A stretch of 64,000 bases of DNA from Adlercreutzia caecimuris B7 (GTDB lineage: Bacteria; Actinomycetota; Coriobacteriia; Coriobacteriales; Eggerthellaceae), in contig NZ_KE159646.1 in assembly GCF_000403355.2 (NCBI RefSeq), positions 2,555,960 through 2,619,959 on the forward strand, given 5' to 3'. The position numbers were made by a program, and so were the translations under genes. A model generated the notes under the pieces. That model saw nothing but the letters and a program-made list of their open reading frames with translations, was not told the DNA's origin and searched no databases. Of the stretch, positions 3,677 through 8,442 are shown piece by piece; positions within the stretch are counted from its first letter, which is position 1, and every line of letters begins with the position of its first letter.

Positions 3677-4585
3677 GTGTTTGAATTCTTGTCTTCGCCA
3701 TTCGGTTTGGTAGCCGTGGGCCTCGGTGTCCTGGCGGTGGCCGTCTTGGCCCTGTGCCTGTGGATCACCACCCTCGACCGCCGTATGCGCGGCATGGCCG
3801 ATGGTCTGGAGGCGGAGCGACGCAAGGTGGCCGAAATGCAGATGGTCATCGGCCGCCGCAATAACGCGGCCCGCAGCTATGGGCGCGGCGGCCGCCCTGC
3901 CCCGGCGGCTGCTCCGGCCCCGACGGCCGCCTCGGTGCCCAACGGCGCCCCTGCGGCCATGGCCCAGGCCGCTCCGGTTCCGAGCGGTGCCGCCGCAACG
4001 GCGCCCGGTGCCTCCGTGCCCGGCCGCCCGGCTCCCGCACCCCGCGGTGCGGCCGGCCATCCGTCCCAGCCGACCCCCAATCCGCAGCAGACGCCGCAGG
4101 GCTGCGGCCCGCAGGCCGCGCCGGCTCGCGGTGGTCGTCCCGCCCGGGGCCAGGGCAGCCGGCATCCGCAGATCCCCCGCGGCGCTCAGGCTGCCCCGGC
4201 TCCCACGCCCCAGCCGGCCGCTGCCGGGTGGACCCCCACGAGCATTCCCCTGCCCACGGGCCAGGAGGTGGATTCCTGGGTGCAGGGCGGTCCGGCCGAT
4301 CAGGCCATCGTCATGCCCGGGAAGAAGATGAGCCGCAAGGCCCGCCGCGAGGCCGAGCGCGCCTTCGCCGCTCGGGCCGCTGCCGAGCTGGAGGCCCGTC
4401 AGGCCCGCCGCGCCCAGGAGGTTTCGGTGCCTCGGGGCGCCCAGCGCACGGGCAATCCCCGGGCTGTGGCTGCCCGCGGCGTCGAGGCCCGCGGGGCCGT
4501 GCGTCCCTACGGCGGGCCGGCCGCTCCGGTGCCGTCGGCTGTGGCCCAAGCCCAGGTCCAGGCCCGCGGCCGCCACGCCCGCTAA
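3677..4585 (+). CDS. Membrane-anchored Ala/Pro-rich protein of unknown function
   Basis: About 302 residues. One N-terminal transmembrane helix (PFGLVAVGLGVLAVAVLALCLW) is followed by a short basic, possibly coiled segment (DRRMRGMADGLEAERRKVAEMQ) and then about 200 residues dominated by Ala, Pro, Gly and Arg, with no recognisable domain. A basic helix-like stretch (GKKMSRKARREAERAFAARAAAELEARQARRAQE) lies near the C-terminus. GTG at 3677 is preferred because GGGAGGGGTT precedes it; ATG 3650 is possible. The topology (helix then cytoplasmic low-complexity tail) is seen; no function is assigned. Confidence 0.6.
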   Translation: MFEFLSSPFGLVAVGLGVLAVAVLALCLWITTLDRRMRGMADGLEAERRKVAEMQMVIGRRNNAARSYGRGGRPAPAAAPAPTAASVPNGAPAAMAQAAPVPSGAAATAPGASVPGRPAPAPRGAAGHPSQPTPNPQQTPQGCGPQAAPARGGRPARGQGSRHPQIPRGAQAAPAPTPQPAAAGWTPTSIPLPTGQEVDSWVQGGPADQAIVMPGKKMSRKARREAERAFAARAAAELEARQARRAQEVSVPRGAQRTGNPRAVAARGVEARGAVRPYGGPAAPVPSAVAQAQVQARGRHAR

Positions 4586-4654
4586 GGCCCTCGCCCACCG
4601 CAAGGCCCTCCGCCCACCGCAAGGCCCCCGTTCGCCACGGCGAACGGGGGCCTT
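4586..4654. terminator. Bidirectional hairpin between convergent genes
   Basis: A perfect 16-base-pair stem (4621-4636 with 4639-4654, loop AC) lies between two convergent genes. It is preceded by two 19-base copies of an AAGGCCCTC(C)GCCCACCGC unit. There is no clear T-run on either strand. Confidence 0.6.
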
Positions 4655-4665
4655 GCGGTTGCTGC

Positions 4666-5505
4666 CTACTTGCCCGTATAGGCCGCTCGGAATCGGGCCA
4701 CGTCGTGCTCGTAGATGACGAGCGTGCTGTCGGGCTCTTCCAGGTAGAAGGGCACCCCGGCCAGCTTCGGATGGTTCACGAGGGCTGCCAGGGCCTCAAA
4801 GCCGATCGCACCCTCGCCGATGCGGGCGTGGCGATCCACATGGCTGCCGCGCTCGTGGATGGCATCGTTGAGGTGCACGGCCTTCAGCTTGTCCAGACCG
4901 ACGGTGCGATCGAACTGCCCGAGCACGCCGTCCAGGTCGCCCGCGATGTCGTAGCCCTCGGCCCACACGCCGGCGCAATCGAGGCACACACCCACGTGAT
5001 CGGCCAGCTTCACCTGGTCGATGATGGCTGCCAGCTGCTCGAAGGAGGTGCCCACTTGGCTGCCTTCCCCGGCCATGGTGTCCAGCAGCACCAGGGTGGT
5101 CTGGCTGGGGGTGATCACCTTGTTCAGGGCATCGGCCACATCGGCCAGCCCCTCTTCCACGGAAATGCCCATGCGGCTGCCCGGGCGCACCAGGTACAGC
5201 GGCACTTGCAACTCGGCCAGCTGGGCCAGATCCTCGGCGTAGGTCATGAGGGCGAAATCGCGCTCGCTCATCTGGGCCGCGGCCGGGTCGGTGTCGTAGG
5301 GGGCGTAGGCCAGCACGTCGCGCATGCCGTGATCGGCTGCGAAAGCGAGGTATTCCCGCACGTCCTTGGTATCCAGCTCCGCCTGTCGGCTGCCCCGCGG
5401 GCTGCGGGTGAAGTACTGGAAGGTGTTCGCGTTGATGGATGCGGCCTCTTTCGCCATTTCCAGATAGCCGCGCCGCTTCGACAAGTGGCAACCGATAGTC
5501 AGCAT
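4666..5505 (-). CDS. Endonuclease IV-like TIM-barrel protein with lost metal ligands
   Basis: 279 residues, the normal length of Nfo, with clear family blocks: IGCHLSKRRGYLEMA, ANTFQYFTRSPRG, SFEQLAAIIDQV, VGVCLDC, GYDI, VHLNDA, GSHVDRHARIGEG and a late YLEEP. Endonuclease IV cleaves abasic sites using nine Zn ligands. Compared with E. coli Nfo, four are changed here: His69 is Tyr (AYAPY), His109 is Arg (LVRPGS), Glu145 is Asp (LLDTMAG) and His182 is Gly (LDCAG). Asp179, His216, Asp229, His231 and Glu261 remain. Start ATG at 5505 has GAAAGGA upstream. It may be a non-AP-endonuclease member (isomerase-like or one-metal enzyme) or be inactive. Confidence 0.8.
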   Translation of the reverse strand: MLTIGCHLSKRRGYLEMAKEAASINANTFQYFTRSPRGSRQAELDTKDVREYLAFAADHGMRDVLAYAPYDTDPAAAQMSERDFALMTYAEDLAQLAELQVPLYLVRPGSRMGISVEEGLADVADALNKVITPSQTTLVLLDTMAGEGSQVGTSFEQLAAIIDQVKLADHVGVCLDCAGVWAEGYDIAGDLDGVLGQFDRTVGLDKLKAVHLNDAIHERGSHVDRHARIGEGAIGFEALAALVNHPKLAGVPFYLEEPDSTLVIYEHDVARFRAAYTGK

Positions 5506-5533
5506 GGGGGTCCTTTCGCGAGTAGATTCTATT

Positions 5534-5715
5534 TTTTGTGGCCAAAAAGCCGCCGAGTGAGCTCGAGATGATGGGAAGATCATAGTTCAGGGGTTGTCGA
5601 GGGGCCGAGAGTGGGGAAATTCGTTCAATAATCCGTTGCTTTGTACCCATGGGGGACTCTTGTATGCGGTCCGGCGCGCTCCCAGAGCTCACTCGGCGGC
5701 TTTTTGGCCACAAAA
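5534..5715. repeat. 182-bp element with perfect 31-bp terminal inverted repeats
   Basis: Positions 5534-5564 and 5685-5715 are exact reverse complements over 31 bases (outer end TTTTGTGGCC..., inner end ...GAGCTC). The 120 bases between carry no credible gene. It lies in the leader of the endonuclease IV-like gene, on the divergent side of the kinase gene. Size and arms resemble a miniature inverted-repeat element or a very long hairpin. Confidence 0.75.
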
Positions 5716-5739
5716 CGGCGGAGTGCTCCCATTCCTGTG

Positions 5740-5871
5740 CCCCCCCACACTCTCCACACCCCCGCACCCCACGTACCCCACACACCCACATTCCCGCCCC
5801 TGCACGCCCCCGCACCCCGCACCCTCGCACCCGGCGCACCCAGCTCCCGCACACCGTGCTTCGCCCCTCTC
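5740..5871 (+). other. C-rich, G-poor tract upstream of the kinase gene
   Basis: About 130 bases are almost free of G on the + strand and packed with CCC/CAC steps. There is no gene in it. On a + strand transcript this composition resembles a Rho-utilisation region; a purely structural or mutational origin is equally possible. Confidence 0.4.
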
Positions 5872-6000
5872 ACGTTGGCGCAGCACCGTTTGGCCCGTGG
5901 AAGCCGCCGATCAACGGTCGCCGCGGCGTTGCCCGGGTGGTAGAATGGCCCTACCTCAAGAACATGCAGCCCAAACGAAGACAGAAGAGGTTCTCGCCCC

Positions 6001-8442
6001 ATGGCACGATCTCAGCTCATCCTCAATCGCTATCGCGTTATCGACCAGGCTGGTGCCGGCGGCTACGGTACCGTCGTGCACGCCTTCGACACCCATCTCA
6101 AACGCGATGTGGCCATCAAGTGCATCGAGCTCTCGGAAGACGAGGTGGCCCGGGCGCGCCTCGTGGCCCTAGAGGCCCGCATGGCCGCCGATCTGGAGGA
6201 CGGGGAGCCCTCCGCGGGCGCTGTAGCCGCTGGCGTTACGGCTCCTGCGGGTGCCGCGCCTTCCGGCGCCTCCGCCCCGGCCTCCGGTGCCGCCGATTTC
6301 CCCGCCGACCCCGCCTTCCTCCGGGGTGTCGACGAACGTCGCAGCGGTCGTCACTCGGCTGCGACTGTGCGCAGCGCCGAGGAGGTGCCCCCCTGGGAGG
6401 ACATGGCCTTTGCCGAGGAAGAGGACGACTCCCTTGCTCCCTGGAACGCCGCTACCGGCGGTTTCGCCGGCCGTTCGCGGCCGAGCTTGGACGGCCGGGT
6501 GGGGCCCCGCAAGACGCGCCATGCCCCCGAGGCCCCCTACGTACCGCCGGTGGAGGTGCAGGATGCCGCCCCCATGAGCGACTACTTCGACGAGAGTGCC
6601 GTGGATGTGCGCCATCTGCGGGGCATCCGGGCATCCCGCACCATCGACGGGGCCGCCGAGAAGCGCCGCCGCCGCGGGGGCCGTGCCGCGGCCGCCTCCG
6701 TCGCCGTGTCGAGCGTATCGGCCGCAGTGGGCGGGGCCGGCGCCTCCGTGCCCCCGGCTTCCACCGACTTCGACGAGACCGACGATGCCGATCTCTTCGA
6801 GCACATTCCCGGCTTGGAGGAGGCCCGATCGGTGGCGAAGCTCTCGGACGCCAACATCGTCACCGTGTACGATTGCGCCGTGGAAGACTCCTGCGCCTAC
6901 GTCATCATGGAGTACATCGAGGGCAAGACCTTGGCGCAGATCATCGACGAGATCGACGACAGCATCACCTTGGATGTGGTGGCCGCCGTCTTCTCGGCCG
7001 TGGCCCATGCCCTCGAGGTGGCCCACGGCGCGAACACGCTGCACCTGGACATCAAGCCCGAGAACGTCATCGTGAACTCCAAGGGCGTGGCGAAGGTGAC
7101 CGACTTCGGCCTGGCCGCCCTCATGGACGCTACGGGATCGGGCACCACCGGCGGCGGCACTATCGGCTATATGCCGTTAGAGCAGATGCGCCAGGAGCCT
7201 TTGGACGTGCGCACCGACGAGTGGGCCCTGGCGAGCCTCACCTACGAGATGCTCTCTGGCGAGAACCCCTTCTTCGCCAACGATCTGCCCGAGGCCGAGG
7301 AGGCCATCGAGGAGGCGGAGCTGGTGCTGCCCTCTCTGTGCTGGGACGAGTTGCCCGCCGAGGCCGACGACATCATGTTCGCCGCCCTCGACCCCGACCG
7401 CGACGAGCGCTTCGATACCGTAGCCGACTTCTCCGAGGCCCTCATGCCCCTGCTCGGCAATGTGAAGAAGGGCAAGAAGGTGCTCGCCGACATCGTGAAG
7501 GGCAAGGAGGACGCCGTGGCGCCCCCCGAGCCCGCCGCGCCGGCCGAGCCCCTGCCGCCGCTAGTGGACCGCCTCGGCCTGCGCGGCCTGACCGTGCTCG
7601 GCCATGCCGTTGCCGCGGTGGCCGTGGGGCTTATGGCGGCAGTGGCCTGCGCGAACATCCACCTGACGGGCGGGTCGGCCCTGGGGCTGCTCACCGACTC
7701 GCCGGTGGTGTTCTGGGTTGTGGTGGCTGTGGCTGCGGGTGTGGCCGCCATCCGCCCCTCCATCGGCGCGCTTCTCGGCTACGGCGCGCTCGTGGTGGCC
7801 CTCGGCGCCCATGGCGACTGGGTGCTCGCCCTGTTCACGGCTGCGGCCACGGGTGGCTGGTGGTATCTCATCGGGCGGCGGGGCACCACCCAGGCGGTCT
7901 CGGCGCTCGTGCAGCCGCTGCTTGGCGCCTTCGGCTTCGCCGGCGTCTCCCCGGTGCTCTCCGGTGTGCTCCTGCCGGTGCTGCAAGCGGCCATTTCGGC
8001 GGCCTTCGCCTTCCTCATGGCCCTCGTGATGGGCAGCTTCGGCTCGCTCGATCTGCTCAACTGGGATGCGGTGCTCCATATGGAGCTGTCCGGCAACCCG
8101 CAGGCGGCCTGCATGGCCATGCTCTCCCAGAGCGGCACCTGGGTTATCGGCATCAGCTGGGTGGTGGGCGCGGTTGTCTACAGCCTGTTCTGCGTGCGCG
8201 GCACCAAGGCCTTCGACGTGGCCGGCTCAATCGCCTGCGCGGTGGTGCTCATGCTGGGGGTGTGCGCGGCGAGCCACTTGTCGGCTTTCGGCGGCTCGTG
8301 GCTGCCCACGCCGGCCGCGCTTTTGGGGGCGCTCGTGCCCGGGGTGCTCGGTATCGTCGCGGCCGTTATGAACGCGCCGGATCGTGCGCGCTGGGCCGAG
8401 GAGGAGTGGTACCTCGACGAGGAAGAGGTGCTCGGGGACTAG
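6001..8442 (+). CDS. Ser/Thr protein kinase with split N-lobe and polytopic membrane tail
   Basis: 813 residues. The Gly loop AGAGGYGTV (residues 17-25) and ATP lysine (VAIK, Lys40) start a Hanks-type kinase, but about 185 residues of Ala/Pro/acidic low-complexity sequence (roughly 75-258) interrupt the N-lobe before the alphaC region (GLEEARSVAKLSDANIV). The catalytic loop is HLDIKPEN (Asp350, Leu in place of the usual Arg), Mg motif DFG at 368, then GTIGYMPLEQ and DEWALASLTYEMLSG. Residues from about 520 form a series of hydrophobic helices, so the kinase is cytoplasmic and membrane-tethered. Start ATG has AGAAGAGG upstream. Substrates and stimulus are unknown; no phosphatase gene is adjacent. 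Confidence 0.88.
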   Translation: MARSQLILNRYRVIDQAGAGGYGTVVHAFDTHLKRDVAIKCIELSEDEVARARLVALEARMAADLEDGEPSAGAVAAGVTAPAGAAPSGASAPASGAADFPADPAFLRGVDERRSGRHSAATVRSAEEVPPWEDMAFAEEEDDSLAPWNAATGGFAGRSRPSLDGRVGPRKTRHAPEAPYVPPVEVQDAAPMSDYFDESAVDVRHLRGIRASRTIDGAAEKRRRRGGRAAAASVAVSSVSAAVGGAGASVPPASTDFDETDDADLFEHIPGLEEARSVAKLSDANIVTVYDCAVEDSCAYVIMEYIEGKTLAQIIDEIDDSITLDVVAAVFSAVAHALEVAHGANTLHLDIKPENVIVNSKGVAKVTDFGLAALMDATGSGTTGGGTIGYMPLEQMRQEPLDVRTDEWALASLTYEMLSGENPFFANDLPEAEEAIEEAELVLPSLCWDELPAEADDIMFAALDPDRDERFDTVADFSEALMPLLGNVKKGKKVLADIVKGKEDAVAPPEPAAPAEPLPPLVDRLGLRGLTVLGHAVAAVAVGLMAAVACANIHLTGGSALGLLTDSPVVFWVVVAVAAGVAAIRPSIGALLGYGALVVALGAHGDWVLALFTAAATGGWWYLIGRRGTTQAVSALVQPLLGAFGFAGVSPVLSGVLLPVLQAAISAAFAFLMALVMGSFGSLDLLNWDAVLHMELSGNPQAACMAMLSQSGTWVIGISWVVGAVVYSLFCVRGTKAFDVAGSIACAVVLMLGVCAASHLSAFGGSWLPTPAALLGALVPGVLGIVAAVMNAPDRARWAEEEWYLDEEEVLGD

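Follow-up and report, generated by a model that had tools for sequence, protein, structure and literature searches.

A conserved sister clade of endonuclease IV in the Eggerthellaceae with an incomplete set of metal ligands

The metal centre of endonuclease IV (Nfo) is trinuclear. According to a structural report from 2026, the equivalents of H69, H109 and E145 make up site 1, those of E145, D179, H216 and E261 site 2, and those of D179, H182, D229 and H231 site 3 (PMC13113976). The transfer of these assignments to E. coli numbers is ours, and the report itself numbers the site 2 histidine as 224 in the legend of Fig. 2 and as 229 in the text. In the same report, E261 is described as a water activator (PMC13113976). 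Other residues serve to hold the DNA. H7, F32 and E261 line the bottom of the abasic-sugar pocket, with the position of Tyr72 acting as its gate (PMC7076025), and R37 and Y72 insert into the DNA (PMC8396254).

The metals have also been linked to separate reactions. For E. coli Nfo, Zn1 is reported to play a particular part in nucleotide incision repair (NIR) and in exonuclease activity, and Nfo mutants that are normal in base excision repair (BER) and deficient in NIR protect a strain devoid of AP endonucleases from alkylation, not from oxidation (PMC2923195). A structure of the H69A protein exists (4k1g). The E. coli separation-of-function mutants are H69A, H109A and G149D, all of which retain E145 and H182; each of the three reportedly loses one zinc (Ishchenko et al. 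2006). Narrowing is also known outside this family, in the protein NExo of Neisseria meningitidis, which has the ExoIII fold, is unrelated to Nfo and, to our knowledge, has lost no metal site. As a class II AP-family paralogue that lacks AP endonuclease activity and is specialised for 3′-phosphate removal (PMC6294502), NExo sets a precedent for a narrowed AP-endonuclease paralogue beside a canonical one. For Nfo, searches of open-licence papers listed no description of a ligand-deficient paralogue; subscription papers lay outside this scope, so that this is weak evidence of absence.

The window analysed here is a stretch of 64,000 nucleotides from Adlercreutzia caecimuris B7, and it contains such a gene (Table 1). 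The product was originally predicted to be Nfo-like in length and blocks, and this description holds: it scores above the cut-offs of TIGR00587 (deoxyribonuclease IV; values in Table 1) and PF01261 (135.4 against 31.1), and below those of the four stricter PRK01060 equivalog models. A separate canonical nfo, which had been suggested as something to look for, was found in the same genome (C1:1415842-1416669; L002), as was xth (C1:1944289-1945068). The two Nfo-type proteins share 150 of 279 residues, and their alignment is gapless up to the last residue. Thus, the ligand positions are certain, and a misalignment that would place the ligands elsewhere is ruled out. The closest named protein is an identical one from Adlercreutzia muris DSM 29508.

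Table 1. The divergent nfo paralogue of the window and its ligand positions (window coordinates; counts refer to 32 distinct divergent sequences; reference residues follow E. coli Nfo)
Feature	Position	Strand	Remarks
Divergent endonuclease IV paralogue, 279 aa	4666..5505	minus	ATG at 5505-5503; TIGR00587 226.9 bits (cut-off 129.65); groups in one clade with further ligand-deficient copies
Shine-Dalgarno-like AAAGGA, 5 nt before ATG	5511..5516	minus	Read directly
Tyr67 for His69 (site 1 ligand)	5305..5307	minus	Tyr in 32/32
Arg107 for His109 (site 1 ligand)	5185..5187	minus	R 21, Q 5, H 6
Asp142 for Glu145 (common to sites 1 and 2)	5080..5082	minus	D 15, E 2, rest A/V/Q/L/M/C
Gly179 for His182 (site 3 ligand)	4969..4971	minus	His in 0/32
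Asp176, equivalent to Asp179	4978..4980	minus	Unchanged in 32/32
His211, equivalent to His216	4873..4875	minus	Unchanged in 32/32
Asp224, equivalent to Asp229	4834..4836	minus	Unchanged in 26/32
His226, equivalent to His231	4828..4830	minus	Unchanged in 32/32
Glu256, equivalent to Glu261	4738..4740	minus	Unchanged in 32/32

Ligands were read in an alignment of 143 proteins and the window protein, with the numbering of E. coli K-12 Nfo (MG1655 record). The string H69, H109, E145, D179, H182, H216, D229, H231, E261 is YRDDGHDHE in the window copy and HHEDHHDHE in its canonical counterpart L002. With four of nine ligands replaced, the full trinuclear set is absent from the window protein. The alignment thus agrees with the original prediction, which had His69, His109, Glu145 and His182 replaced by Tyr, Arg, Asp and Gly, and Asp179, His216, Asp229, His231 and Glu261 kept. 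That one side of the centre is lost was likewise borne out: H69, H109 and E145 all belong to site 1, and the loss extends across a clade in a constrained gene. Three of the four ligands are intact both in site 2, where Asp stands for Glu at E145, and in site 3, where H182 is gone. The arrangement of an NIR-deficient, Zn1-less Nfo, in which site 1 is lost and the other ligands are intact, is therefore not matched, since E145 (site 2) and H182 (site 3) are changed as well.

The protein is predicted to adopt the Nfo-type TIM barrel. A structure model built with 18 aligned sequences (pLDDT 94.5, pTM 0.92) has endonuclease IV entries as its best structural matches (Z 30.1-39.5). Against the Nfo-DNA complex 1qum, Z is 39.0 over 274 residues (rmsd 1.6), and 1qum and the H69A mutant 4k1g together give 38.9-39.0. 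The viral AsfvAP comes next after the Nfo entries (Z about 27), followed by the D-tagatose 3-epimerase-like proteins 3wqo (Z 25.0) and 2zvr, at Z 24-25 and 12-15% identity. Foldseek also puts Nfo entries first. In its predicted fold, length, pocket residues H7, F32, R37 and Y72 and ligands D179, H216, D229, H231 and E261, the protein resembles endonuclease IV, from which it differs in the three changed ligands of site 1, the lost H182 of site 3 and scores that do not reach the PRK01060 models. Like the NIR-deficient, BER-proficient E. coli mutants, it has lost site 1 and carries a replacement at H69. Unlike them, it is natural, bears Tyr and Arg rather than Ala, and also has E145 and H182 gone.

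The window copy is one of 32 distinct divergent sequences. All of them have Tyr at H69 and have lost H182, and D179, H216, H231 and E261 are fixed throughout, as are the lesion-pocket and wedge residues H7, F32, R37 and Y72. E145 is changed in 30. Six sequences (from genera g16, g34 and g57 and from genome G067) keep H109 and have lost D229, while D229 is present and 109 is R or Q in the remaining 26. All 32 thus share the changed H69 and the lost H182, and the other ligands of sites 1 and 3 went separate ways; the order of these events within the clade is something that we infer. Among 121 distinct rows, 92 have all nine ligands and 29 lack three or more, and no row was read in which just one or two were lost.

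This loss had been described as not being random decay of the whole site. In canonical rows 79 columns are invariant, 33 of which are also fixed in the 29 divergent rows. Against this background, the retention of all four pocket residues is unusual (P=0.027); the fixation of four of nine ligands (P=0.57) and of none of the three site 1 ligands (P=0.19) is not. Chance is disfavoured not by column counts but by the inheritance of the same substitutions across the clade under selection.

Nfo matches were found in 100 of the 119 sampled genomes of the family, and ligands were read for all listed family matches except six fragments (in G025, G035, G106 and G117). A ligand-deficient copy is present in 28 of the 119 genomes and 11 of the 48 sampled genera, so the recurrence of the substitutions in Eggerthellaceae, which had been proposed as a check, extends to related genera. 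All 28 genomes carry a second Nfo, canonical in 27 and represented by two contig-end fragments in G117. The divergent copy occurs in seven of seven sampled genomes of the window's genus (of nine in all; G309 and G310 lay outside the ligand survey) and is patchy elsewhere, for instance in one of five sampled g44 genomes and two of five in g41. Separately, one canonical-type match (G052:C25:117176-118012) has an internal TAA.

A further 67 rows were read, 63 of them with all nine ligands. Fifteen came from the family and are all canonical; the other 52 (51 genes) came from other families of the class or phylum and comprise 48 canonical and three divergent genes, one each in G270, G191 and G264. 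This reading left out the second G270 match and most rows from other families. In G191 and G264, members of genus g57 in another family (98% and 96% complete), the divergent copy is the sole Nfo match, and no Nfo was matched in G197, the third genome of g57. Canonical nfo is thus absent from the matches of all three g57 genomes, and xth is present in all three. A second duplication, without ligand loss, is seen in another family of the order: G283 has two Nfo copies (L140 and L141), both with all nine ligands.

The divergent rows group into a single clade within the family's canonical Nfo in three trees, all made with the ligand columns removed. In a quick tree of 121 rows, left from 144 after duplicates and sequences below 250 aa were dropped, the clade (29 rows) has an SH-aLRT support of 90. 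In a careful tree, from which 37 more rows (E. coli, long rows and near copies) were dropped, 26 of 84 rows are divergent and support is 99/94. A third tree, extended by the copies found in other families (29 divergent among 78 rows, three of the 32 being left out), gives 98/95; long rows (L129, L132 and L097) and the joining of a long branch at L129 call for some caution here. All three trees have the row of G031 as the nearest canonical one. Independent losses of the ligands are thus unsupported, as a single clade forms even without the ligand columns. Copies from other families nest inside the divergent clade, which suggests that they were acquired by transfer. The clade is conserved and deficient in ligands; it is a sister group to endonuclease IV, placed outside the trinuclear enzyme by its ligands. 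A phage or plasmid origin was also considered and rejected: all matches in such records (41 plasmid, 7 phage) are below 60% identity, and the best among the matches listed reach 47% and 37%.

The divergent gene is under purifying selection, with dN/dS (Nei-Gojobori, uncorrected for codon bias) at least about double the value for canonical nfo. Among eight Adlercreutzia sequences it is 0.045-0.308 (27 of 28 pairs, the remaining pair being without amino-acid change), compared with 0.048-0.109 for canonical copies of the same genus (15 pairs). Beyond these, the range is 0.099-0.353 in seven divergent and 0.093-0.143 in four canonical pairs, so that all 19 canonical pairs span 0.048-0.143. No listed divergent match contains an internal stop. 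A pseudogene or a sequencing error is rejected, given the same substitutions in many genomes and dN/dS of at most 0.353. A functionless, decaying duplicate is very improbable for similar reasons, even with a constraint weaker than that on canonical nfo and the patchiness within g44 and g41, as the listed matches lack stops, eight active-site and pocket residues are fixed in 32/32, the gene is in every sampled genome of the window's genus, and two genomes from another family yielded no Nfo besides it.

The genomic neighbourhood of the divergent copy often includes repair genes. In six genomes (G027, G031, G075, G093, G104 and G112) it directly precedes canonical nfo on the same strand, with 73-96 nt between the two. 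In G067 the tandem is reversed, with a gap of 193 nt, and this opposite order leaves a slight chance of a second duplication there. In the genomes of g17 (3/3), xth follows the divergent copy on the same strand, and the listed matches are separated by 26, 284 and 405 nt. In genus g5 it is convergent and 608-740 nt away in 4/4 genomes; GTP cyclohydrolase I stands between the two genes in the one genome read (G050). Thus, in 14 of 28 genomes an AP-site repair gene (nfo or xth) is beside or near the divergent copy. In 21 of the 28 genomes xth is elsewhere, or was not found in the case of G030. This genome of the same family is 98% complete and has both Nfo copies, and 31 of the 32 genomes searched have an xth match. 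Regarding xth itself, in 12 genomes (G004, G050, G081, G100, G027, G069, G031, G093, G104, G075, G112 and G091) the profile match falls into two segments adjoining near position 138, within open frames of 288-370 aa, and this pattern points to an insertion in the ExoIII homologues concerned.

The region upstream of the window copy has features of its own. Here and in L033, L034, L036, L037 and L038, divergent nfo faces away from a gene of cluster c1, which encodes a protein kinase in both copies that were scanned; the kinase gene of the window is at 6001. A perfect 31-nt inverted repeat (5534-5564 and 5685-5715, arms 120 nt apart) lies just upstream of divergent nfo. Its 16-nt core has exact matches nowhere else in the genome, and one further place matches with one mismatch. 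In Adlercreutzia mucosicola (L034) a change in one arm is matched by the same change in the other, which indicates that the arms evolve together; the arms are degenerate in L036, and the repeat is absent from L033, L035, L037 and L038. An invertible promoter was considered and rejected, as the inner segment is oriented like the gene in the three of nine genus genomes where this segment was found and likewise, judged by eye, in L036, so that no inversion was seen. A sigma-70 consensus scan of positions 4580-6010 found no promoter. Between divergent nfo and the kinase gene, five partly overlapping 28-nt copies of a C-rich degenerate direct repeat occupy positions 5742-5841.

The substitutions are clade-wide, a single origin is supported, the gene is constrained, its product has a predicted Nfo fold, and it co-exists with canonical nfo and xth; what we infer concerns DNA binding, the number of metals and all catalysis of the divergent protein. 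Our preferred reading, held tentatively and at a little below an even chance, is a retained Nfo duplicate that docks damaged DNA at a centre reduced to site 2, has lost NIR and exonuclease activity, and keeps a narrowed activity. Endonuclease IV would have been duplicated in Eggerthellaceae, one copy would have lost metal site 1 (His69 to Tyr and, mostly, His109) together with His182 of site 3, and this ligand-deficient duplicate would then have been maintained as a second protein. Abasic or otherwise damaged DNA would dock in the ordinary Nfo pocket (H7, F32, R37, Y72 and E261), at a site 2 metal held by D179, H216 and E261, plus D145 where present, and perhaps a weak site 3 metal on D179, D229 and H231. 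There would be neither NIR nor 3′-5′ exonuclease, and AP-site incision or 3′-end trimming would be what is left.

This reading leans on what has been published on the E. coli enzyme. Zn1 is tied there to NIR and exonuclease activity, and the clade lacks the Zn1 site; the divergent protein is thus predicted to be negative for both, and it is probably unable to carry out NIR. The pocket is intact, as is most of one metal site, and NIR-deficient mutants keep AP-site repair (PMC2923195), so a loss or narrowing of activities seems at least as likely as the new activity originally proposed. Nevertheless, with E145 (30/32) and H182 (32/32) changed too, and D229 also absent in 6/32, AP incision is perhaps weak or absent, and a narrowed 3′-end activity like that of NExo, or plain binding, are real alternatives to it. 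Lost positive and gained acidic positions could moreover weaken DNA binding, dN/dS is raised relative to the canonical gene, and xth is not near the divergent copy in 21 of 28 genomes.

Binding alone would be the role of a dead pseudoenzyme that shields abasic sites or signals their presence, its remaining metal or metals merely holding phosphate. The lost site 1, the damage to site 3 in 32/32 and the fixed lesion pocket would all fit such a protein, as would its position next to canonical nfo in seven genomes. Yet E261 and D179/H216 are fixed in all 32 sequences, which is more than a mere binder should need, and the two g57 genomes have the divergent copy and no canonical nfo. We therefore regard a pseudoenzyme as somewhat unlikely. 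The same two genomes (G191 and G264) speak against a protein that works solely in partnership with canonical Nfo. A more novel reading is a natural one-metal (site 2) family of Nfo fold that would receive abasic or end-damaged DNA in the ordinary pocket, carry out a reaction foreign to canonical endonuclease IV, and outlive it in some genomes; this we consider unlikely.

A one-metal TIM-barrel enzyme might instead have left DNA altogether and act on a small sugar (phosphate) or nucleotide, as a return to an isomerase- or epimerase-like site. The constant site is site 2, which we take to be the counterpart of the single-metal site in D-tagatose 3-epimerase-like enzymes, which rank structurally behind the Nfo entries (3wqo, Z 25.0). 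Positive charge has also gone from several canonical positions: the canonical family's charge at 150, 40, 228 and 65 is lost in most divergent copies, with K150 replaced by E in 24/32 and K228 by V in 16/32. T262 is E in 23/32 and T73 is D in 17/32, and the mean pI is 4.86 compared with 5.30 in canonical proteins. Acidic residues 153, 160 and 185 have likewise gone from most of the divergent proteins, and E. coli Nfo itself lacks K150 and K228. Against a sugar enzyme, the DNA-inserting R37 and Y72 are invariant in 32/32, as are H7 and F32 of the pocket, and a repair gene stands beside or near the divergent copy in half of the 28 genomes. Furthermore, in epimerases the glutamate equivalent to E145 is an acid/base residue. 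Of the epimerase-type E, D, H, E site, which has two catalytic Glu, the divergent copies keep D, H and E, whereas the first ligand is D in 15/32, E in 2/32 and otherwise non-acidic, so that this glutamate is missing in 30/32. Such an enzyme is distinctly unlikely.

The clade may bear on which metals of the enzyme serve which reaction. The metal roles of endonuclease IV and the separate importance of NIR have so far rested largely on laboratory point mutants. A similar experiment appears to have been run by evolution, and its product is kept beside the intact enzyme in several genera of gut Actinomycetota. For the divergent clade, the annotation 'deoxyribonuclease IV' is in question.
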